DNA from: an uncultured SAR86 cluster bacterium
GTDB lineage: Bacteria; Pseudomonadota; Gammaproteobacteria; Magnimaribacterales; Magnimaribacteraceae
NCBI GenBank assembly: GCA_902618945.1
Contig: CACNCK010000008.1
Coordinates: 1 to 59,211, forward strand
DNA length: 59,211 nucleotides
Reading direction: 5' to 3'
The translations under genes were made by a program, and so were the position numbers. Positions 29,385 to 40,345 of this stretch are shown in pieces (positions within the stretch are counted from its first letter, which is position 1; each line of letters starts with the position of its first letter). Below the pieces are notes generated by a model. That model saw nothing but the letters and a program-made list of their open reading frames with translations. It made no database searches and was not told the origin of the DNA.

Positions 29385-31415
29385 CTAATTATTTATATAA
29401 GCTACATCTTCTGCTTTAAGCAGATCCTTGTCTAAAACATTAAGGAGTGGCTTTAGATATTTTGCATAAGGTTTCCATCTTCCCATGCCGTCTTTATTAA
29501 CTGGGCGTCTAACTTGTTCCGAACTTGCTGTTCTAACCGATCTATCTGTTTCATAAAAAGATATACAATCTTCCTCGAAAGGTAAATCTAGAAAATTAAG
29601 AATCCTATGAACTTGCCCTTCTAAATCCTCTACTACATCTTCGTTGTTTACCCGCAGTATCTTTTCCGGCAAAACTTTGTCCCAATGATCCATTAATTTG
29701 ACATAGCTAGTATAGTAACTTCCTGCCTCTTCAAGACCATATGTAAATTCTTGTCCTTGTGCAAAAAGTTGCTTAAACATACTGAAGCAACAGTCTAATG
29801 GATATCTTCTTGCATCAATTATCTTGGCATTTGGCATGATTAAGTGAATCAAACCAATATGCCTGAAGTTGTTTGGCATTTTATCAGTAAACATTGGAGC
29901 ATCTTTTCTATGCATCCTTGTGTCTTCAATAAAACCTCTTCCTAGTGCTTCTCTTTGCTCTGCACTTAAATTCTTCAAACTTTTAGGATAGTTTCCTTCT
30001 TTCCCATAAATATCATCACCTCTCAGACTTTGGGCAATTGATAGAATATTTGGTAGCTCTAACGTTCCATCTATCATTGAATGAGAGGCTAAGATCTGTT
30101 CTATTAATGTAGATCCAGCTCTAGGTAGACCCAGAATAAATATTGGGTCTTTAGTGTGATAGCCTCCATCGCCTAAATCGTTGAAAAAATTTTCATTACA
30201 GACATCTATTTGGGCCTGTAATTCTTTGTCCATTCTCTCAATAGAATATAGACTTTGATTTTTCTTTATCTGGTTGCCCCTAACTAAATGATGAAATGCT
30301 TCTTCAAACTCATTATTGGCCTCACATCCCTGAGCAAGAGCAAAGTGAAAATATGCTTTATCCCTTAAAGACAAATCTACCCTTTCAACTTGCCTTCTCA
30401 TTTCATCCATTTCTTTTCTGGAGAAAGTGTAAGTCTTTAAATTTGCTAGAGAAAAGAAAGCTTCTCCATGATCGGGCTTAATTTGATAAGCAGATTTATA
30501 ACTTTCTATTGCTTTATCAGTTTGACCCAAAGTTTTTTGTGCATGTCCTCTTGAGGTAAGAGTACTGAAATTGAAAGGATTCTTTTTAAGGATATCATCA
30601 AGCAAGCTAATAGCTTCTTCATGACCTCCGTTTTGCATTATCTCACTCGCCTTGTGAGCTTGATAGTTGAGATTATTTGGAAATTGATCACAAAGAATAT
30701 TTACTTGTTCCATGGTTTTAGAAAACTTCTGTTTCTTTCTTAGTATGGTGGCATATTTCATCCTTAAATCACCATCTTGAGGCTTAAACTCCACGGCCTT
30801 TTCAAGCAAAAATTCAGCATCATCAAAATAACCTAACCTGTTAGCTATTTCAGCCAATAATGCCATTGCATAGGTGTGTGTAGGATGTTCTTTTAAAAAA
30901 GCTCTACACTTTGCCTCAGCCAAGCCAAGCCTGCCTTCATTAAGAATCTGATCTATATATAGAAGGGAGCCAGGAAGAGATTGAAGTTTTTTAATTTGTT
31001 CTGCAGCATGTTCAGCAGCTGGCTCATTTTTATTCTTTACAAAATATTTATATAAGAAACTCCAGGAACCAATCAAAGCAGGATTCAACTCGCAAGCCTG
31101 CCTATAGTGCATAACTGCTTTTTCTTCATTACCCATATCTCTATTAAGATGAGCTAATTCTTGATAAGCTCGCCCCATATCAGGAGCATTGACCAGCAAG
31201 TCTTCGATATATTTTTTTGATTCTTTAAACTGTTTTAAATATCTTGTAGAAACTGCAGCAAGATACAGACTGTCAATATTGCTCGGATTTTCTTTGAGAA
31301 TAACTCTTAATAGATTTATGGCATCCTCAAATCTATTATCCTTTACTGCTTGAGTTGCATCACTTAAATCAACAGATAAAGTTTTTTCATCTATATTGAA
31401 ATTATCTTCTTTCAT
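29385..31415 (-). CDS. TPR-repeat sulfotransferase
   Basis: A 676-residue two-part protein. Residues 1-385 are tetratricopeptide repeats (for example EEKAVMHYRQACELNPALIG and TDKAIESYKSAYQIKPDHGE), a scaffold for partner binding. From about 420 a sulfotransferase domain starts, with the PAPS phosphate-binding loop GLPRAGSTLIEQIL at 429-442 and a second motif near DARRYPLDCCFSMFKQ. Such enzymes move sulfate from PAPS to a hydroxyl or tyrosine on an acceptor. No signal peptide is visible. The gene lies between a TonB receptor and a transporter, an arrangement I recall as common in marine Proteobacteria. The acceptor is unknown. Confidence 0.9.
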   Translation of the reverse strand: MKEDNFNIDEKTLSVDLSDATQAVKDNRFEDAINLLRVILKENPSNIDSLYLAAVSTRYLKQFKESKKYIEDLLVNAPDMGRAYQELAHLNRDMGNEEKAVMHYRQACELNPALIGSWSFLYKYFVKNKNEPAAEHAAEQIKKLQSLPGSLLYIDQILNEGRLGLAEAKCRAFLKEHPTHTYAMALLAEIANRLGYFDDAEFLLEKAVEFKPQDGDLRMKYATILRKKQKFSKTMEQVNILCDQFPNNLNYQAHKASEIMQNGGHEEAISLLDDILKKNPFNFSTLTSRGHAQKTLGQTDKAIESYKSAYQIKPDHGEAFFSLANLKTYTFSRKEMDEMRRQVERVDLSLRDKAYFHFALAQGCEANNEFEEAFHHLVRGNQIKKNQSLYSIERMDKELQAQIDVCNENFFNDLGDGGYHTKDPIFILGLPRAGSTLIEQILASHSMIDGTLELPNILSIAQSLRGDDIYGKEGNYPKSLKNLSAEQREALGRGFIEDTRMHRKDAPMFTDKMPNNFRHIGLIHLIMPNAKIIDARRYPLDCCFSMFKQLFAQGQEFTYGLEEAGSYYTSYVKLMDHWDKVLPEKILRVNNEDVVEDLEGQVHRILNFLDLPFEEDCISFYETDRSVRTASSEQVRRPVNKDGMGRWKPYAKYLKPLLNVLDKDLLKAEDVAYINN

Positions 31416-31507: not shown

Positions 31508-34120
31508 TTAAAAGTTGAGCTTATACCTTAAACCAACAGTCATGGGTCTTATAACAGCAACTCTTTGTCTATCAAAAACATAATTATTACTAATTTCTGC
31601 TCTTTCATCTGTAATGTTATCTATATAGATTTCTGCTACCCAACCATCATTACTGATGCCTGCCCTTACATTCGCATAGCTATAACTATCTTGTTTTGCC
31701 TTATTAGGCTCAATAATATCTGAATAACTTTTATCAGAAGCTATAAGCTGACCTTGAATATGACCTAGGTTGCCCGAAGACATTCCCCACTCATATCTGG
31801 CGGCTACATTAGCTTGCATACCTGGTGCAAAAGCCAAATCTTTTCCTGCTACAACATCACTTGTAGTAAGTGACTTTTTGATTTCAGTGTCTAATAAAGA
31901 GAAAGCTCCCGATAACATTAATCCTTCGATATTTGGATAGTAAATAAAGTCTCCCTCTATACCTGTGATATCTGCATCGGCAGCATTATCGGAGAAGAAT
32001 AAATTAGCAATACTAGGATCGAATATTGTTGTTTGCAGTCCCGATACATCAACCATAAACACACTACCGTTAAATCTCAATCTACCATCTTGTAAGACTG
32101 TCTTCCAACCGAATTCATAGTTAGTCACTTCATCTGAATCAGTAACCGGTCTGACGGTATAAGAACCATCTGGGGTTGATTGACCCGCCGGACGATTTAA
32201 TAATCCCGGTCTGAAACCTTCTGACCAAGTAACGTAATACATAACATCATCGGACTTGTTCCAAGAAAGGGTGGCCTTTCCTATCACTCCATCAGATTCA
32301 GCTTTATCAGGATAATTTAATTCGTCAATGAAAGGATTGCCTGTTAGCACTCCTGGTTTATTAAACGCCGCTGATAAATTCGTACCAAACCTTTGTTGAT
32401 CTCTTTGCTCTAATCCTCCAAGAAAACCAGTAGTAAATGAAGCATTAGCTGAACCTTCTAAATCTACTGCTATGTCATACCATCGAGCACCGACAGTTAG
32501 TTCTACACTGTCTGATAAATCAATAGCTAGCTCACCGAAAACCCCTTTTTGTTTATCAGTTCTCTTAATATCATTGATAAACATTACAGGTGGCATATAT
32601 GGACCTCTGCCAGAATGCCATCCGGGAGCAGCATACTGCTTAGATTTAAGGTTGCCATCACTGTCCAGTAAGGCTTGATAGCCAGCTACAGAAGTATCCG
32701 TTAAGGCGTAATTTGGTCCCCATCCTATGTCACTTTCAACAGCACCAGGATAGGTAAACATATTATGTTCTAGCAATTCCAGATCACTCATAAAGGCGCC
32801 AGCAGTGATACTCATTCTGTCGTTGATGGGTGCATTTATTCTAATTTCATGTGTTTTAACTTTGGAATCTGTAATCGAATCAACGAACATATCAGGGGCC
32901 GGACAAGCACCAGTAGGTACATTTCCAGGTGCATATTTCGTATAAGTTACATAGTAATCACAAATATAATATGGCAAGTATTGGCCAACAAAAAGATAGT
33001 CAGTGTAATCAATAATTTGATCAGAATTTCTATCTGTATAAGCACCGGCGTAAACAACTTCCAAATCTCCTATTGAACCCTCAATCGTTAAGCTCATATT
33101 GTCGAATTCATCTTCTAAAGTATCGTTGTGATATCTTTGGATTTCCAAATCACCTAATGTAGGATCTGTAAAAAATACTCCATCAGACTCAATTGTTTGA
33201 TTAGATACTGAAAGTAAAGCGTCCCAATTATCGTTGATCTCTTGAGCTAAACTTAATCTAAAGCCTTCATAAGTGACTTCGTTTATATCTTCTTTAACTA
33301 TAGCATTCGCATCTGCAAAAGTTACTCCTGAAAGGTCTGCTCCAGCTTGAAAGCCATTTCTTGCAGCAGAAACGGGAAGTCCATTACTTCTAATTGTTCC
33401 TGAAGGTCTAAAACGAGCAGACTGGCTGGCATCTACTGTTCCAGCCACTTGATCGATATAGCCACCTTTTCTGTCTCTGTAAGCAACAAATCTAGCAGCT
33501 GTAGTTTCACCAAGAGGAATATTAGAAACTAACTCTACCTTACCTCCGTTATCACCTTCAGACATATGTCTAAATTCTGTTTCTATATTTGTTTCAGCCA
33601 CTCCAATTTCAGGTTTGTTTGTAATCATTCTTACCACACCTGCCTGAGAGCTAGCTCCAAAAAGAGTTCCTTGAGGTCCTTTTAAGACTTCTATACGACC
33701 AATATCAGCAGCATAAACATCCAAATTTCTTCCAGGCTGAGCTAGTGGTTGCTCATCTAGGTAGAAAGATACGTTTGGAGCTAAACCACCTACACCTGCT
33801 GTTGTGAGGTTAGGTGTCGTTGATGCAAGGCCTCTTATATAAATGGTACTTGTACCAGGCCCTGCTCCTCCCGCGGTTACACTCGGGAGTTGTAATAAAT
33901 AATCTTCAAATACATTTACACCTAGCTCTTCTAAAGAACTTTCTCTAAGAGCAGAAACAGATAAAGGTACATCTTGCAGGCTTTCTGCTTTCTTTCTTGC
34001 TGTGACGACAATTTCTTCTACCGCATCTTGCGAAAGCACATATCCACTGAAAGCTGAAGCATTAAAAAGAATAAAAGTTGAAAAATAGAAGGTCAATTTT
34101 TCTCGAATTTTTCCAAACAT
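31508..34120 (-). CDS. TonB-dependent outer-membrane receptor
   Basis: An 870-residue outer-membrane receptor for energised uptake. A signal peptide covers about the first 30 residues (hydrophobic FYFSTFILFNASAFSGYVLS). The TonB box lies in EEIVVTARKKAESLQDVPLS. The plug domain shows IYIRGLA and the signature IEVLKGPQGTLFGASSQAGV, and the protein ends in a beta-signal, VGLRYKLNF. The organisation resembles the large marine group often annotated as iron-siderophore or sterol/terpenoid receptors. The ligand cannot be inferred. An AGGGGA ribosome-binding site precedes the ATG, and a palindrome overlaps the predicted promoter. Confidence 0.96.
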   Translation of the reverse strand: MFGKIREKLTFYFSTFILFNASAFSGYVLSQDAVEEIVVTARKKAESLQDVPLSVSALRESSLEELGVNVFEDYLLQLPSVTAGGAGPGTSTIYIRGLASTTPNLTTAGVGGLAPNVSFYLDEQPLAQPGRNLDVYAADIGRIEVLKGPQGTLFGASSQAGVVRMITNKPEIGVAETNIETEFRHMSEGDNGGKVELVSNIPLGETTAARFVAYRDRKGGYIDQVAGTVDASQSARFRPSGTIRSNGLPVSAARNGFQAGADLSGVTFADANAIVKEDINEVTYEGFRLSLAQEINDNWDALLSVSNQTIESDGVFFTDPTLGDLEIQRYHNDTLEDEFDNMSLTIEGSIGDLEVVYAGAYTDRNSDQIIDYTDYLFVGQYLPYYICDYYVTYTKYAPGNVPTGACPAPDMFVDSITDSKVKTHEIRINAPINDRMSITAGAFMSDLELLEHNMFTYPGAVESDIGWGPNYALTDTSVAGYQALLDSDGNLKSKQYAAPGWHSGRGPYMPPVMFINDIKRTDKQKGVFGELAIDLSDSVELTVGARWYDIAVDLEGSANASFTTGFLGGLEQRDQQRFGTNLSAAFNKPGVLTGNPFIDELNYPDKAESDGVIGKATLSWNKSDDVMYYVTWSEGFRPGLLNRPAGQSTPDGSYTVRPVTDSDEVTNYEFGWKTVLQDGRLRFNGSVFMVDVSGLQTTIFDPSIANLFFSDNAADADITGIEGDFIYYPNIEGLMLSGAFSLLDTEIKKSLTTSDVVAGKDLAFAPGMQANVAARYEWGMSSGNLGHIQGQLIASDKSYSDIIEPNKAKQDSYSYANVRAGISNDGWVAEIYIDNITDERAEISNNYVFDRQRVAVIRPMTVGLRYKLNF

Positions 34121-34154
34121 TGTTGGTTTCCCCTTTAAGCAAAATAGCTTAATA

Positions 34155-34181
34155 ATTATATTTACTACGTAAAGTGTAGTA
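34155..34181 (-). promoter_or_regulatory. -10 box and overlapping palindromic operator ahead of the TonB receptor
   Basis: On the minus strand a perfect TATAAT (34160-34155) lies just after an inverted repeat, TACTAC-N7-GTAGTA (34181-34163), which would occupy the promoter spacer. That is a typical place for a repressor. The -35 region is weak. A second inverted repeat, AATAGTT-N9-AACTATT (34212-34234), lies upstream. The MarR protein encoded at the end of this operon is a plausible ligand, but this is inference. Confidence 0.55.
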
Positions 34182-34275
34182 TATGTTATGAAATAATCAA
34201 GTTAGTTAGTCAATAGTTCTATCTTATAACTATTTTTTAGTTGATTTTACGTAATGAAGACGTTCTGAGTTGGTT

Positions 34276-34413
34276 TTACTGGTAAAGAATGAAAATTAAT
34301 AAAGGAGTAATTGAAAGAGCACTTGCTATTGTTACTAGTTTAGTGGGCTTTAAAGCAACTAAAAGACATAAAAGAAATATAAAAATAGCTGCTAAGAATG
34401 ATGTTAATTCCAT
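34276..34413 (-). CDS. Small two-helix membrane protein (45 residues)
   Basis: This unannotated small reading frame starts at an ATG two bases after the VOC gene stop (TAA-CT-ATG), as expected for translational reinitiation. The product begins MELTSFLAAIFIFLLCLLVA, has a short KPTK turn, then a second hydrophobic stretch, LVTIASALSITPLLIFIL. That gives two membrane helices and almost no charge elsewhere. It has no recognised family. A 52-residue two-helix protein lies at the other end of the same operon. The opposite strand also holds a 55-codon frame without a ribosome-binding site, which I consider the shadow. Confidence 0.5.
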   Translation of the reverse strand: MELTSFLAAIFIFLLCLLVALKPTKLVTIASALSITPLLIFILYQ

Positions 34414-34415
34414 AG

Positions 34416-35336
34416 TTAAAGCTTTTGGACAAGTCTGGTTAAAATATTACCTTTAAGGCCTGATTGAATAGAAGCAATCTTATCATCGTCTGAAACTTGT
34501 AAAATTTGTGTACCTTTAGCCTTAAAGCGATCTATCTCTTTTTGAATATCCGAGACTTCAAATATGATTTCAGTAACACCCTCTCCACGTTTCTTTATGG
34601 ACTCGGAATAAATACTACCTTCCTCTGACTTCATCAACTCAAAATGAATTCCACCCAGTGAGAATTCTTGACAGATGGTCTTCCATTCTTTCCTTTTAAT
34701 TGAATTGTTTAATTTCTCATAACCCAAGTCTGAGTAATAACTTGCTGCAGACTCAAGATCATTTACACTTATCCCTATTCCCATAAATTTCCATTGATTT
34801 ACCAAGGGATGAGATTCATTATTCTTGCGCCAAGATTTTTCCCAATCGTCAGCTGGAGGTCTTAATGAGATCATCAAGTCTCCATGTAACCTAGTATCTA
34901 TATAATTTTCTATCGTTTTACCGTTTGTTGTTACATTAAAAACCAGATCACAGCCGCGATCTAAAAAATACTGGGTGTCATTTTCAATATCGGTAGTATT
35001 GAAAGCTATGTGGTTAATGCCATTGCCCTTTTTTTCTAAATAACGGCTTATAAACATTCCAGGACCGGGTTTCATAGGGAAAATTTCGAGCTGACAGTTG
35101 CCAATCTGAGATTGGCCATCTCTAAAATGATGAGCTCCACCAGTTTGGTATTTATGAGAAACAGGATCTCCATCGAGCTCTCTAAAGAAAGTTATTTCTC
35201 CTTCTCCTGCGATAAAGGGTTGTAATGGTTGAGGTCCTACGCTTACACCTAAGCCTATTGATTGATAATATTCTAAAACCTCATCACGATCGGTAACCAT
35301 CATGCCCAGGTGATTAAAAGACCAATTAAATTTCAT
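34416..35336 (-). CDS. VOC-superfamily (glyoxalase/dioxygenase fold) protein
   Basis: A 306-residue protein of two vicinal-oxygen-chelate halves. The first half keeps probable metal ligands His9 (FNHLGMMV), Glu84 (CQLEIF) and His109 (GINHIAF), an order seen in methylmalonyl-CoA epimerase and related enzymes. In the second half the matching positions are Gly187 (MGIGISV), Glu233 (IHFELM) and Glu256 (GVTEIIFEV), so it probably binds no metal of its own. Possible activities are an isomerase or epimerase on a CoA thioester, a lyase or an extradiol-type dioxygenase; I cannot choose. Its start overlaps the dehydrogenase stop by four bases (ATGA), so the two are made together. Confidence 0.8.
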   Translation of the reverse strand: MKFNWSFNHLGMMVTDRDEVLEYYQSIGLGVSVGPQPLQPFIAGEGEITFFRELDGDPVSHKYQTGGAHHFRDGQSQIGNCQLEIFPMKPGPGMFISRYLEKKGNGINHIAFNTTDIENDTQYFLDRGCDLVFNVTTNGKTIENYIDTRLHGDLMISLRPPADDWEKSWRKNNESHPLVNQWKFMGIGISVNDLESAASYYSDLGYEKLNNSIKRKEWKTICQEFSLGGIHFELMKSEEGSIYSESIKKRGEGVTEIIFEVSDIQKEIDRFKAKGTQILQVSDDDKIASIQSGLKGNILTRLVQKL

Positions 35337-36163
35337 GCCATGTAACCGCCATCTACGTTCAAAATTGTACCGTTTATATAACTTGATGCATCAGAAGCAA
35401 GAAAAACTGCAGCATTAGCCATTTCATTGAAAGTAGCAACTCGGCCTAAGGGTATATTTTCTGGACCAGTTGACCAAGCTTCAAATTTTTCTTGATCAGA
35501 TACTTCTTTTTTTTCTTCCTCAATATTTGTTCTTTTCTTTTTGATATTTTCTTGTCCTGGAAATTCTTCCCACTCTACCAAGGAAGGGGCTATAGCATTC
35601 ACTCTTATGTTATGAGGTCCTAAATATCTAGCATACTGTCTGGTCATCATAGCAATACCAGATTTAACAATTGCATAGTTACCCATAGCTTTGTCAGCAT
35701 GAGCTTTTAGGCCTCCACGCGATGTTAAATTTATTATGCTGCCGCTGCCTTGCTTCTTCATTATTGGAGATACTTCTTGAATTGTGAGCCAGTAACCCTT
35801 CAAGTTAACATTACTGAGCTGTTCCCAACTTTCTTCATCTAAATCAACAACCGATTTCATGTGATACATCACTGCCACATTCATCAAGATATCAATACCA
35901 CCAAATTCAACCATCACCTTATCAACCATTTTTTTTACATCCTCTTGAGAAGAGATGTCGGTTTTTAGAAAAATAGACTTTCTTCCCATTGCCTCAATTT
36001 CTTCACTTACTGCCTTAAGTTGACCAGATTCAATATTTATATCAGTAACAGCGACATCAGCCCCAGCTTCAGCAAGACCTAAAGCAAAACCCTTACCCAT
36101 ATTTCTTCTTGCACCAATAACCAAAGCTTTCTTACCGCTTAATGAAAATTCTGAAAGTGACAT
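35333..36163 (-). CDS. Short-chain dehydrogenase/reductase
   Basis: A 276-residue classical SDR. The nucleotide-binding turn is GARRNMGKG at residues 17-25, and Asp41 after strand 2 (VAVTDIN) favours NAD over NADP. Asn120, Ser148, Tyr163 and Lys167 (NYAIVK) form the catalytic tetrad, and the C-terminus NGTILNVDGGYMA is typical. An unusual charged insertion, rich in Lys and Glu (about 206-226), sits in the substrate-loop region, so the substrate pocket may be special. It likely oxidises an alcohol to a ketone or aldehyde in the pathway of this operon. Confidence 0.9.
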   Translation of the reverse strand: MSLSEFSLSGKKALVIGARRNMGKGFALGLAEAGADVAVTDINIESGQLKAVSEEIEAMGRKSIFLKTDISSQEDVKKMVDKVMVEFGGIDILMNVAVMYHMKSVVDLDEESWEQLSNVNLKGYWLTIQEVSPIMKKQGSGSIINLTSRGGLKAHADKAMGNYAIVKSGIAMMTRQYARYLGPHNIRVNAIAPSLVEWEEFPGQENIKKKRTNIEEEKKEVSDQEKFEAWSTGPENIPLGRVATFNEMANAAVFLASDASSYINGTILNVDGGYMA

Positions 36164-36218
36164 AAAACCAATAATTAAAATTAATAAATATTTACATTAG
36201 GTTCTTTTAAGAAAAGGA

Positions 36219-37880
36219 TCAACAACAACTGCACTTATTAAGACTGGAAGGTAGTACTAATCGCGAAGTTGAACTCGTAAAATGTTTTGACCTGGAAATG
36301 TCTCCACCTTTTGTTTCTTTAAGTTTTTTATTGAAAACCTGTTCTTCCTGCTCAGATAAATAATACCCGGTATCAATTTCGAAACTGTGTTTTCTTACCT
36401 GAGTATTTATGGAAATTCTCGAATTATCTAAGATTTTATATTCATTAAATTTCTTTCCATCACATAAGACTGTTATCTCCTTGGCATCTGGCAGATTAAA
36501 TACTTCAATGTTTGTCTTTTTATTTGTTTTTGTTTTATCACCATCAGAAATACTAAAGTGCAATTTTCCCTTTCGGTCATTATGGAATGCTTTCTCAATA
36601 GATACTGAAGGAAAATCAACGCCTTCAATACTAGGAGAATAGAACTTTGTTAGATTAGGTTTATTAAAGAGACTCTCCCAAGCTTCAGGTTCGCAAACTT
36701 CAGCACACATTGCTAAAGCAGAGAGCTGTCCTCTGGGCCATTTTTCACCAAGATTAAACCAAAATCCAAATTGACTGTCGTTGATGCCAAAGAATTGAGG
36801 TTCAAAGTTTTCTTCGGCATATTGTCTTAATCTTTCGTAGGTTATCTGATCGTCAAATTCCCTAGACATAGTTAATCCAAGGGCAAACATTCTTGGATCC
36901 GGCATAAATTCGTTTGTAATTGGAATAGAAGGATTATCCCATCCCAAGAAGTTAATAGCTCCTCGATAGAGAAGTTCTGCAAATTGCGGGTCTTGGGGCT
37001 TTGCGTAAAATGATACTGCAAGTCCATGAGTTGGTAATGTTCTGTGATGGTGATCATTGATCTCATCAAAATACATGGTTACCCATTCTAAAGATCCATT
37101 CTTGTTGAACCCATAGTATTTATCTTTAGTAAAAGATAACCAATTTGAATATGAACTATGAAAATTATTGTCAAAAATTTTATCGTACATCATCAAACCC
37201 AGTCCTGCGGCTGATAAACAAAAAGGCCATGCTTTGGTATTTTCACAATGCGGTCCCATTGGGGTCTTTGCCCACTGTTGATGTAAGTGGTCAGCTAGTT
37301 GGTGCTGAGTCCATTCAAATCTGGAATTGTAAGCTCCTGCCACACTAAAAGGTGAAGACCACTTATCGTAACCACTGACATATGTATGCATTGACTGAGT
37401 CAAGTTCAGCCAGCCCTTAAAAAATAAATTTCCATCGGCACCTATTGGATCAGCGTGAAATCCCCATGGGGCGACACCATTTGCTGTCCAGCCAGGTGCA
37501 TCATATTCTCCCCAAAACTCTTCGGGTATAAGCGTGCCTCTCCATGCCTCTGGGTAATCTTTTCTATCAGGATCATGACCAAATTGTGTTAGCCAGTCTA
37601 CGGCTGCCCAATAAGTGATAGAGCGTTCAGCTATTTCATCTAATATCTCAGAGTAGATTTCCCTCCAGGCTGGAGTTGTATCAGCCATTAAACCAATAGC
37701 ATATGTTGATTCTTGCAGATCAAAACGAGGGAAAGCACACATCGGTGCTGTTGAAATTTGGTCCCACCATTCATTTGGAGACCCATCTTCGGACCAATCA
37801 TCTGGTGTAGTAGCCTTTTGATAAAGAAAATTTAACCATCCTTGAGCTCTATTATTTAGTTCTGGATGATTGGTTGGCAT
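36219..37880 (-). CDS. Linalool dehydratase-isomerase-like protein with extra C-terminal domain
   Basis: This 553-residue protein is rich in Trp and aromatic residues and looks like an (alpha/alpha)6-barrel. I align its middle (HCENTKAWPFC, residues 211-221, then LGLMMYDKIFDNNFHSSYSN) with linalool dehydratase-isomerase of Castellaniella defragrans. As I recall, that enzyme uses Asp39, Tyr45, Cys171 and Cys180. Here Asp54/Tyr60 and Cys212/Cys221 keep both spacings (6 and 9). The recalled Met125 and His129 appear replaced by Phe153 and Trp157, so the substrate may differ. Residues from about 410 form an added beta-rich domain ending in CSCC. No clear signal peptide is seen; the C. defragrans enzyme is periplasmic. 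The likely role is water removal from, or addition to, an allylic or tertiary alcohol. It starts eight bases after the GST gene. Confidence 0.6.
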   Translation of the reverse strand: MPTNHPELNNRAQGWLNFLYQKATTPDDWSEDGSPNEWWDQISTAPMCAFPRFDLQESTYAIGLMADTTPAWREIYSEILDEIAERSITYWAAVDWLTQFGHDPDRKDYPEAWRGTLIPEEFWGEYDAPGWTANGVAPWGFHADPIGADGNLFFKGWLNLTQSMHTYVSGYDKWSSPFSVAGAYNSRFEWTQHQLADHLHQQWAKTPMGPHCENTKAWPFCLSAAGLGLMMYDKIFDNNFHSSYSNWLSFTKDKYYGFNKNGSLEWVTMYFDEINDHHHRTLPTHGLAVSFYAKPQDPQFAELLYRGAINFLGWDNPSIPITNEFMPDPRMFALGLTMSREFDDQITYERLRQYAEENFEPQFFGINDSQFGFWFNLGEKWPRGQLSALAMCAEVCEPEAWESLFNKPNLTKFYSPSIEGVDFPSVSIEKAFHNDRKGKLHFSISDGDKTKTNKKTNIEVFNLPDAKEITVLCDGKKFNEYKILDNSRISINTQVRKHSFEIDTGYYLSEQEEQVFNKKLKETKGGDISRSKHFTSSTSRLVLPSSLNKCSCC

Positions 37881-37888
37881 ATCGATAA

Positions 37889-38506
37889 TTAAACTTTAGA
37901 GCTTGGTCTAGACAGAATTTGTTTATGCCATCTGGATAGATTTTCTAACCCGTGATCTGGTTTTAGATCAACCATGCTAGAAGCAAAATCTATTGCAGAC
38001 AAAAGGGTGATGTCGGCAACGGTGAACTTATCTCCCGCTACGTATTCTGAGTTAGAAAATTCTGTATCCAATCTTGCATAGTAGGCTATAACATTCTTAT
38101 CACTCGCTTTCTTAGCATCTGGAATTTGTTTAAATAAACCCATTGAACCTACAATTGGACCATTCACCCAGGAAGTTCCAATTTGCGTCCATAGCTCCAA
38201 CTCTATGTGTCTATTTCTGCTCTCTATAAAAGATACCTCAAAAGCGTCCTCACCAAATAAGTTGGGATCAGGTACTAAACTCTCCAAGTATCTACAAATA
38301 GGTATGGACTCAGAAATGCATCTTCCGTCATCTAACTCTAAGACAGGAATTTTGCCGCTTGGATTTTTTTTTAAGAACTCCGGAGATTTATGCTCTCTCT
38401 TTGTCATATCACAGTTAATTAACTCTAAAGTGATATTCTTTTCTTCTGCAAAAATCTTTACTCTTCTAGGATTAGGAGCACCAGGAAAGTCGTAAAGTTT
38501 CATCAT
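37889..38506 (-). CDS. Glutathione S-transferase family protein
   Basis: A 205-residue soluble enzyme. The thioredoxin-like N-terminal domain has the glutathione-site motifs NPSGKIPVLELDDG (about 48-61) and SESIPICRYLE (about 64-74). The helical C-terminal domain contains YVAGDKFTVADITLLSAID. The start overlaps the acyl-CoA synthetase stop by four bases (ATGA). In isoprene and some terpenoid pathways a GST of this kind opens an epoxide or serves as isomerase, so its place in this operon is suggestive. Confidence 0.9.
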   Translation of the reverse strand: MMKLYDFPGAPNPRRVKIFAEEKNITLELINCDMTKREHKSPEFLKKNPSGKIPVLELDDGRCISESIPICRYLESLVPDPNLFGEDAFEVSFIESRNRHIELELWTQIGTSWVNGPIVGSMGLFKQIPDAKKASDKNVIAYYARLDTEFSNSEYVAGDKFTVADITLLSAIDFASSMVDLKPDHGLENLSRWHKQILSRPSSKV

Positions 38507-40047
38507 GAGATGGCCGGGGCATCTGAACCTAATAAATCTTCTCTTAAATTTCTTTTTAGGACTTTACCGGTAGCATTACGAGGTAAAGCATCTATAAATT
38601 TAACTGAACTGGGTACCTTAAATTTAGCCAGATTGTTTATGCAGTGTTGAATGATGTCTTTTTCTTCAAGCTTCTCATCGGCCTTTAGGCTTATAAAGGC
38701 CACTCCAGTTTCTCCCCATCTCTCATCAGGAACACCAAGAATTGCAGCTTCGGCGATTTGAGGCAGCTGATAGAGAACATTTTCAACTTCCGCCGGATAA
38801 ACATTCTCTCCACCTGATATATACATATCTTTCCAGCGATCTACGATATAGATAAAGCCTTCATCATCAAATCTAGCTGCATCACCAGTTTTAAGCCAGT
38901 CGTCTTCGAAAGAGTTCTTTGTAGCCTCTTCATTATTCCAGTAACCAGGTGTGATATTAGGACCTCTAATATAGAGCTCACCTACTTCTCCCCAAGGGAG
39001 TTCCTTGCCTTCATCATCAACAATTTTAACTTCTGTATGTAATAATGGTTTTCCTGCAGAGCCTAACTTTCTTTCTGCATCTTCAGCGGGTAGTCCTATT
39101 CCTCCAGGACTTGTCTCAGTCATACCCCAACCCTGAATCATAGAAACGCCTCTATCTGACCAGGTTCTGAGTATTGCCTCAGCGCATGGAGCACCACCTA
39201 CTCCCGCAACTTTCAGACTTGATAAATCAGTGCTATCAAAATCAGGATGATTCATCATGAATTGATAAGGGGCTGGAACTGCAAAAAAATGAGATACCTG
39301 AAATTCGGGATTTCCAAGAATTGACAATGCTAAGCCAGGATCAAAATCTCTAATAAGAATTAATTCCCCACCAGCATGCAAAACAGGATTTGCATAGCAG
39401 TTCATACCCCCGGTATGAAAAAGCGGTAAAACCACTAGCTGAACAGTATCTGAGGATACAAATGCAGGTGAGGCAAGATTGATGACATTATACAGTTGCA
39501 TTTGATGATTAATCATCGCCCCTTTTGGGTGACCAGTTGTACCAGATGTATACATAATCATTATCAAATCTTCTTGTGTAATTTCCGGTTGATCATAATC
39601 AAAACTAGATTCCTTTAGAGTAATTTCATACTCGCTTTCTAAATCTTCCTTATTAATCTCCAAAGAGCTAGAAATATTGCAGTCTTTTACTAATTCGTTT
39701 GAGATATCAGAAAAAGATATATCATAGATGAGAACTTTAGGCGTGCTGTCATTAAGGATATATTCAAGTTCAGGTTTTGTTAATCGCCAATTTAAGGGGA
39801 GCTCAATAGCTCCTATTTTTGCACATGCAAATTCTAGTTCGAAAAATTCAGCACAATTCTGAGATAAAATTGCTATCCTATCGCCCTTTTTTACTCCCAC
39901 ACTTTGCAACCAATTTGCTAGAAGACAAGCCCTATCATCAAGCTCTTTGTAAGTTAAAGTTTGTTTTGCGCTCAGGTCATGAATCGCTATCTTTGTTGGC
40001 CTCACGTAAGCATGATAAGCTGACCAATCATAATGTTTGACAGACAT
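38503..40047 (-). CDS. Acyl-CoA synthetase (AMP-forming)
   Basis: A 514-residue member of the adenylate-forming family that activates a carboxylic acid to its CoA thioester. The phosphate loop YTSGTTGHPKGAM is at residues 166-178, GWGMTETSPGG near 314, YISGGENVYPAEVE near 415, and the catalytic lysine lies in NATGKVLKRN near 498. Overall form matches medium- or long-chain ligases of the FadD/FadK type. It follows the small membrane protein after 12 bases with a GGGG ribosome-binding site. It supplies CoA intermediates for the operon's other enzymes. Confidence 0.93.
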   Translation of the reverse strand: MSVKHYDWSAYHAYVRPTKIAIHDLSAKQTLTYKELDDRACLLANWLQSVGVKKGDRIAILSQNCAEFFELEFACAKIGAIELPLNWRLTKPELEYILNDSTPKVLIYDISFSDISNELVKDCNISSSLEINKEDLESEYEITLKESSFDYDQPEITQEDLIMIMYTSGTTGHPKGAMINHQMQLYNVINLASPAFVSSDTVQLVVLPLFHTGGMNCYANPVLHAGGELILIRDFDPGLALSILGNPEFQVSHFFAVPAPYQFMMNHPDFDSTDLSSLKVAGVGGAPCAEAILRTWSDRGVSMIQGWGMTETSPGGIGLPAEDAERKLGSAGKPLLHTEVKIVDDEGKELPWGEVGELYIRGPNITPGYWNNEEATKNSFEDDWLKTGDAARFDDEGFIYIVDRWKDMYISGGENVYPAEVENVLYQLPQIAEAAILGVPDERWGETGVAFISLKADEKLEEKDIIQHCINNLAKFKVPSSVKFIDALPRNATGKVLKRNLREDLLGSDAPAIS

Positions 40048-40059
40048 AAATTTCCCCAG

Positions 40060-40218
40060 TTATAAAAAAACAACCATAAATAAGTAGAATACTATTACTG
40101 CTCCCCAAATATTTAATAAGAAACCAATTCTTCTTCCAACTTGCTCTCCTTTCGAATATTGCCAAAGAAAGAATAAAAGGCTAATAAATATTAAAGAAAT
40201 AATAATTCCAATATGCAT
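40060..40218 (-). CDS. Small two-helix membrane protein (52 residues)
   Basis: This unannotated small frame has its ATG at 40218 and TAA at 40060-40062, 12 bases ahead of the acyl-CoA synthetase ATG. The product begins MHIGIIISLIFISLLFFLWQ, has a charged turn YSKGEQVGRR, and continues with IGFLLNIWGAVIVFYLFMVV. That gives a hairpin of two membrane helices with a positive loop. The ribosome-binding site is weak. No family is recognised. Its position at the head of the catabolic operon suggests a small subunit or a helper of an uptake or ligase complex, but function is unknown. The 127 bases upstream, shared with rnr, show no convincing promoter on either strand. Confidence 0.5.
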   Translation of the reverse strand: MHIGIIISLIFISLLFFLWQYSKGEQVGRRIGFLLNIWGAVIVFYLFMVVFL

Positions 40219-40345
40219 AACACAACTTTAATAGCTAAGTTAGTAGCAAGCAACCTTGTCCTAATACAAAAATCACTCTTAAATAACTTAATGATTTAAA
40301 ATACTCTAACAAGTTAAAAGCAAAATACTTAACAGAAAGCATCCA

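Follow-up and report, generated by a model that had tools for sequence, protein, structure and literature searches.

The 59,211-nucleotide contig CACNCK010000008.1 of an uncultured SAR86 cluster bacterium (GCA_902618945.1; the whole stretch is called the window here) carries at positions 34276-40218 of its minus strand a set of seven genes that forms a real, conserved operon with a divergent enzyme of the linalool dehydratase-isomerase (Ldi) superfamily, and the content of this operon shifts between close relatives. The original prediction, made from the letters of the window, had described seven minus-strand genes that overlap or are separated by 55 bases at most, and the coordinates bear this out: 7/7 genes were confirmed in place, all on the minus strand, with spacings of 12, -4, 8, 55, -4 and 2 bases in transcript order. 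Pfam agrees with the names given there to the five larger genes, which encode an AMP-binding acyl-CoA ligase, a glutathione S-transferase (GST), the Ldi-superfamily protein (LDI), a short-chain dehydrogenase (SDR) and a vicinal oxygen chelate (VOC) protein, while the two small genes at the ends encode hydrophobic proteins. Since all seven genes keep one identical order in eight genomes (window included), the gene set is not due to chance; it is a compact, conserved operon whose genes are presumably co-transcribed.

Family membership and key residues of LDI

Judged by its sequence and predicted fold, LDI is a member of the Ldi superfamily. It exceeds the cut-off of the Pfam profile PF18566, and a structure check of the kind proposed in the original prediction matched the predicted fold to Ldi and not to an unrelated family. 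A profile search of the PDB returned eight Ldi sequences (best E 3.7e-06), followed by a chance match at 0.24. Alignment of seven subfamily rows with six rows of Ldi and proteins like linalool isomerase (Lis) by hhalign gave a probability of 99.2 and an E-value of 1.5e-19 over residues 52-498, so that the homology continues into the C-terminal beta domain of the longer family members. The AlphaFold2 model (19 sequences; mean pLDDT 71.5, pTM 0.80) predicts a helical barrel-type domain followed by a C-terminal beta domain; 136 of its residues fall below a pLDDT of 50, the low-scoring stretches including 29-51, 109-144 and 209-217. When this model was compared with the PDB by Foldseek, the first 27 of 355 matches were all Ldi chains (probability 1.00, target TM-score (TMt) 0.60-0.66). 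The rows below these were taken from the best 50 of the 355 matches, among which a phage tail protein (E 2.3e-4) stands out from the other non-Ldi rows.

In the alignment to Ldi, the stretch around His129 corresponds to GFHADPIGADGNLFFKGWLNL in LDI, placing Trp157 at the position of His129, and the Ldi sequence CEPDNYFVQC aligns with CENTKAWPFC, so that Cys171 and Cys180 correspond to C212 and C221. Trp157, C212 and C221 are invariant in three overlapping alignments (18/18, 19/19 and 7/7 rows). The available part of one study gives the key Ldi residues as H128, Y44, D38, C179 and C170 (PMC12455561), a numbering that seems to run one below the customary count. The N-terminal region that holds Asp39 and Tyr45 of Ldi aligns unreliably with LDI. 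At the His129 column, the Lis-like proteins that were found have Phe and L071 has Tyr, and the loss of His129 therefore need not exclude alcohol chemistry. On these alignments, LDI is a separate branch of the Ldi superfamily in which the cysteine pair is kept and His129 is replaced by Trp. At the C-terminus there is in addition a CxCC tail (CSCC in the window, 36222-36233), in which one cysteine is replaced in 1 of 18 SAR86 rows; the tail also occurs near the C-termini of L069, L149 and L150, is absent from the Streptomyces protein described below, and could have a metal or redox role.

Ldi (LinD) of Castellaniella defragrans, an enzyme that acts on linalool, geraniol and myrcene, shares with LDI the Pfam family, the predicted fold, the Cys171/Cys180 motif and a DPI motif before the His129 column. 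By contrast, LDI is 39-49% longer (553 vs 371-397 residues in the PDB chains), and it has an extra C-terminal beta domain, about 40 additional residues ahead of the DPI motif (roughly 99-138) and Trp for His129. It also has no hydrophobic N-terminal segment, whereas Ldi is described as periplasmic in the accessible part of the source (PMC4791888). Lis of Thauera linaloolentis is a long form, and the Lis-like proteins of L152-L154 have both barrel and beta domain in common with LDI. For Lis, the same portion of that source gives four predicted N-terminal transmembrane segments (PMC4791888), whereas no hydrophobic segment of SAR86 LDI exceeded the threshold. The L152-L154 proteins have hydrophobic N-termini and Phe at the His129 column; from their size and N-termini they would be Lis orthologues.

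Distribution of the LDI branch

Among the 35 genomes that represent the window's family, LDI was detected in 21, as 18 full-length genes, two genes cut by contig ends (G037 and G069) and one remnant (G049). The remnant comprises 47 codons inside its contig (L049, 15708-15848), with downstream genes as in G065, and would represent a recent loss of LDI. No LDI was found in other families among 199 genomes of the order, once six noise matches had been set aside (six of the 27 matching genomes, belonging to family f3, in which about 115 C-terminal residues aligned with 5-7 internal stops). Since LDI is also missing from all four family genomes of at least 90% completeness (0/4), its absence is often real.

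A search for near relatives, which scanned for two exact peptides and so reaches near relatives only and may miss the window's own records, gave 21 loci: 15 labelled as SAR86, four only as Gammaproteobacteria, one as Rhodobacteraceae and one as Alphaproteobacteria. Of these loci 18 were used further, without L052, L060 (a second copy) and L070 (partial). The closest named relative of the LDI gene, at 97% identity, is from SAR86 cluster bacterium AG-447-A08 (AG- names presumably denote single-cell genomes). The Rhodobacteraceae-labelled contig (L065, 3.4 kb) carries an LDI of 67% identity beside a SAR86-type amidase-like gene and is probably misbinned. Farther afield, a protein search of 397 other genomes of the phylum gave no convincing LDI match (one weak match of 69 residues was set aside), and the PF18566 profile matched three of the 398 phylum genomes, counting that of the window. 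Relatives do occur in an alphaproteobacterial metagenome-assembled genome (L069, 50% identity), on two Streptomyces plasmids (39% identity over 90%), and in G663, G722 and G627 (45, 44 and 52% identity, G627 being cut by a contig end), which belong to the same phylum and a different class and come from a set of 297 genomes in the order to which G487 belongs. Searches of plasmids with the VOC protein gave no match, and with SDR and GST all relatives among the matches listed were below 60% identity.

Gene neighbourhood and modularity

LDI lies directly after GST in 16 of the 21 SAR86 carriers, and the next gene at these GST-LDI loci is SDR in 12, while SDR is absent in two (G025, G033) and the contig ends in two (G037, G069). 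In the other five carriers (G045, G115, G065, G097 and the G049 remnant) LDI lies elsewhere among other neighbours. The linkage of LDI to its neighbours, whose loss in homologues the original prediction had named as a ground for refutation, holds in part: the order is kept in eight genomes, but the set is missing around LDI in five SAR86 carriers out of 21 (including the 47-codon remnant) and in the non-SAR86 relatives whose neighbourhoods were read, though a CoA ligase is close in one of the latter. The neighbours of LDI in one genus are a PF04909 amidohydrolase, a DUF1330 protein and an amidase (Pfam on G115 only), in a second a sulfatase, a desaturase and a DUF1330-like gene (the last by eye), and in a third a PF04199 protein. 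Outside SAR86, LDI is followed in G663 by MaoC and an AMP-binding CoA ligase on the same strand, the ligase being 30% identical to that of the window; LDI is adjoined by a HAD hydrolase and a cupin in G722, by an enolase-superfamily gene in L069, and by an alpha/beta hydrolase and an unnamed gene on the Streptomyces plasmid.

The gene set is modular and does not form one obligate pathway. Among 24 loci compared, which do not include the window, the rnr site lacks GST-LDI but keeps the ligase and SDR-VOC in G005, G009, G081, G103, G045 and G115 (the ligase match of G045 being split in two), whereas in G041 the ligase is absent along with GST-LDI. SDR-VOC is absent from G025 and G033, and G065 and G061 keep the ligase and GST, with LDI, SDR and VOC undetected. 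In G045 and G115 about 3.8 kb of other genes, a luciferase-like monooxygenase among them, separate the ligase from SDR; the genes that lie between these two at L127 4207-7926 and L128 1862-5580 also include a GNAT gene and, by eye, aminotransferase and sulfotransferase-like genes. In another genus (L130-L133) GST lies near an alkyl sulfatase and an amidohydrolase (Pfam on L130), with an enoyl-CoA hydratase and an aminotransferase identified by eye. One contig (L040, G118:C14) has two inverted partial copies of the cluster, with rnr in two opposed pieces, and looks like an amplification artefact.

Across the 35 family genomes, LDI and GST tend to be present together (20/1/4/10, Fisher p 5e-5; 1.5e-4 when the G049 remnant is scored absent), and LDI and VOC show no significant co-occurrence (p 0.18). 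In the ten genomes of genera without adjacency the LDI-GST counts are 4/1/3/2 or 3/1/4/2 (p 1.0), and the co-occurrence was rejected as a sign of shared function. These tables were counted by hand and the tests ignore shared ancestry.

Mosaic identity between close relatives

Compared with G013, the window is 95-96% identical in secA, lpxC, rlmB and rnr, 93% in the ligase and 77-81% in GST, LDI and SDR; compared with G017, it is 71-80% identical in the flank and 96-97% in GST, LDI and SDR. In bins of 150 bases the identity switches at 38716-38865, inside the ligase gene, and at 34816-34965, inside the VOC gene. The core between these bins (34966-38715; 3.75 kb from the 3' part of the ligase gene through GST, LDI and SDR to the 5' part of VOC) is 96.9% identical to G017 and 77.5% to G013, whereas the upstream segment (38866-40300) is 77.3% identical to G017 and 96.5% to G013. 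Downstream (34000-34815) neither relative is close, with 75.4% for G017 and 67.4% for G013, and the gene of the TonB-dependent receptor that follows the operon is 83% identical to G013 and 75% to G017 over half its length. A pairwise comparison of 17 genomes, in which 66 of 136 pairs had enough sequence, gave a second discordant set: G109 is 95-96% identical to G025 and G033 in the part of rnr present on its contig and 78% in LDI. Relatives appear to swap this block, and the exchange probably proceeds through homologous recombination at the site beside rnr.

Operon extent and partner proteins

The features of the region are collected in Table 1. Upstream, the genes rnr, rlmB, lpxC and secA (named by eye) lie on the opposite strand from 40346. 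Counterparts of the first small gene show identities of 75-100% within the same genus and in genus g4, and of 45-79% in other genera; the last has homologues of 42-84% identity within the same genus and was not detected in genus g4. The receptor gene starts 155 bases past the last small gene on the same strand, and no terminator-like site was reported between the two. The terminator-like hairpin past the receptor is weak evidence, as seven such sites were found in the region against a shuffle mean of 6.9; promoter-like sites fell below shuffle level (22 vs 35.8) and were not used. The receptor also follows the 45-aa gene in G017, G109, G077, G112, G057, G013, G025 and four LDI-less genomes, but it does not follow the small gene in G091 and G033; it comes next in 7 of the 8 seven-gene genomes (window included). 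The TPR-sulfotransferase adjoins the receptor in 10/10 same-genus loci with a complete receptor (window included). The transcript may extend to the receptor.

Table 1. Features of the operon and its surroundings (positions in the window).
Feature	Position	Strand	Basis or remark
52-aa membrane protein, two hydrophobic segments	40060..40218	-	first operon gene, divergent from rnr
AMP-binding acyl-CoA ligase	38503..40047	-	Pfam AMP-binding 321 bits; NF004837 subfamily 526 bits vs cut-off 476
GST	37889..38506	-	Pfam GST_N 64.9, GST_C 43.5 bits
LDI, 553 aa	36219..37880	-	Pfam Ldi PF18566 46.9 bits, cut-off 26.1
Classical SDR dehydrogenase	35333..36163	-	Pfam adh_short_C2 193.8 bits
Two-half VOC protein, 306 residues	34416..35336	-	Pfam Glyoxalase_4 66.9 bits
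45-aa hydrophobic protein	34276..34413	-	hydrophobicity; homologues in same genus
TonB-dependent outer-membrane receptor	31508..34120	-	Pfam; possibly final gene of transcript
TPR-sulfotransferase	29385..31415	-	Pfam; probably separate unit past hairpin 31486-31465
Putative recombination block	34816..38865		150-base bins 94-99% identical to G017 at the nucleotide level (89 and 91% at the edges)

Among the partner proteins, the nearest solved relative of GST by sequence is yeast Gtt2 (3erf, E 5.8e-32). SDR has YxxxK and an Asp at the end of beta2, as read from its sequence; with these motifs taken in what we understand to be their usual meaning, the Asp suggests NAD as cofactor. The VOC protein resembles methylmalonyl-CoA epimerase in its VOC halves and in two histidines and a glutamate at the positions we take to be metal ligands: H9, E84 and H109 are invariant in five aligned rows, without a clear fourth ligand. 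It differs from that enzyme in joining two halves in 306 residues and in scoring 64.4 bits against TIGR03081, far below the NCBIfam cut-off of 114.95.

Proposed function

The reading we favour, tentatively and as possible rather than probable, is a modular SAR86 catabolic operon with a divergent Ldi-type lyase or isomerase, perhaps for a hydrophobic substrate; its chemistry, step order and substrate we infer. The TonB receptor probably imports the substrate, and LDI would dehydrate, hydrate or isomerise an alcohol by means of its conserved cysteine pair. SDR may then oxidise an alcohol step and the ligase form a CoA thioester that leads into acyl-CoA metabolism, while the VOC protein would epimerise or isomerise an intermediate and GST conjugate or isomerise a reactive one. 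The wider core seems to consist of the ligase and SDR-VOC, to which GST-LDI would be an optional module that is gained, lost and exchanged beside rnr. Given the steroid and aromatic degradation potential reported for SAR86 genomes (PMC11582366), an aromatic or steroid-like substrate is as plausible as an isoprenoid one. The link to CoA recurs outside SAR86, in the LDI, MaoC and ligase genes of G663, which counts for this reading. Several observations weigh against it. The neighbours of LDI elsewhere are highly varied. The association of LDI with GST is carried by adjacency, since it vanishes in genera where the genes are unlinked. C212 lies within the low-confidence stretch 209-217 of a model that is only moderate overall (pLDDT 71.5), and the Ldi superpositions have an rmsd of 6.2-7.8 and a query TM-score (TMq) of 0.41-0.46. 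Misassembly of the window's genome could account for part of the mosaic, although a chimera assembled from two sources explains it incompletely, as neither relative is close downstream.

It is somewhat unlikely, in our estimate, that there is no single pathway at all, and that the ligase, SDR-VOC and GST-LDI form a loose cluster in one transcript serving separate lipid, aromatic or detoxification tasks. Every module is indeed absent somewhere, LDI and GST are independent when unlinked, and the accessible part of one study reports a wide potential for steroid and aromatic degradation in SAR86 genomes, with catE/gloA (VOC-type) among the many genes (PMC11582366). Yet one gene order is maintained in eight genomes, with the receptor next in most of them, and in the window the ligase and GST genes, like those of SDR and VOC, overlap by four bases. 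That the Ldi name misleads, with LDI acting on a carbohydrate or another polar substrate like other helical-barrel enzymes, appears unlikely. Glycan enzymes, GH127 and GH9 among them, make up most of the 23 non-Ldi rows among the best 50 of 355 Foldseek matches, with E-values of 1e-3 or weaker; in other genera a sulfatase adjoins LDI and GST has an alkyl sulfatase nearby. Against this, the best Ldi E-value is about 200 times better than the best other one and even the weakest Ldi value about 18 times better, TMt is 0.60-0.66 for Ldi as against 0.12-0.33 for the others within those best 50, and the C171/C180 motif is retained.

The terpenoid-type pathway of the original prediction was not supported: Trp replaces His129 in every aligned row, and no terpene-specific partner was found. 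In its fuller form, with LDI converting linalool-like or longer (phytol-type) isoprenoid alcohols, SDR oxidising and the ligase activating the product, we judge it distinctly unlikely. The Ldi homology by Pfam and Foldseek speaks for it, as does the acceptance by Ldi of tertiary alcohols up to C13, reported in the available part of PMC12455561; moreover, if the Lis-like proteins with Phe at the His129 column are true linalool isomerases, the loss of His129 would be compatible with alcohol isomerisation. The invariant Trp and the additional residues ahead of the DPI motif argue against it. The partner searches themselves were uninformative: PF01039 acyl-CoA carboxylases occur in 35/35 family genomes, with LDI present or not, and are therefore silent on a terpene pathway, and the diiron oxygenase family PF02332 gave no match in 35 genomes (0/35), where the controls were silent as well. 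None of the findings singles out terpenoids. A glutathione route as in isoprene degradation, in which a glutathione adduct made by GST would be oxidised by SDR and pass to a CoA thioester by the logic of IsoI, IsoH and IsoG, is highly improbable. GST, dehydrogenase and a CoA-ester step do resemble the isoprene cluster isoGHIJ-aldH as given in the accessible part of PMC10057887, but the operon has an AMP-binding ligase where the CoA-transferase IsoG would be expected beside GST and the dehydrogenase, it adds an Ldi-like enzyme and a VOC protein, and no monooxygenase, aldehyde dehydrogenase or CoA-transferase is among its genes. Furthermore, GST and LDI are gone from several loci that retain the rest, while the lack of diiron oxygenase matches, with its silent controls, does not establish absence.

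A bolder extension of the catabolic reading, which we regard as doubtful, is that the Trp-for-His branch, which is spread over SAR86 and as far as Streptomyces plasmids, carries out the first step in degrading a marine isoprenoid or some other tertiary alcohol by way of CoA and glutathione, and that SAR86 lineages trade this step by recombination of a GST-LDI cassette inside a conserved operon.

Significance

Among the entries listed by searches of the open-licence literature, none dealt with the operon or with Ldi in SAR86. To our knowledge, few members of the Ldi superfamily have been characterised, and the conserved set of uptake and enzyme genes offers a concrete target. As this branch is without a catalytic residue of the type enzyme, its activity would show whether the chemistry extends past monoterpenes, and the block exchange, if true, would neatly illustrate how a metabolic step passes from one close lineage to another at a single site.

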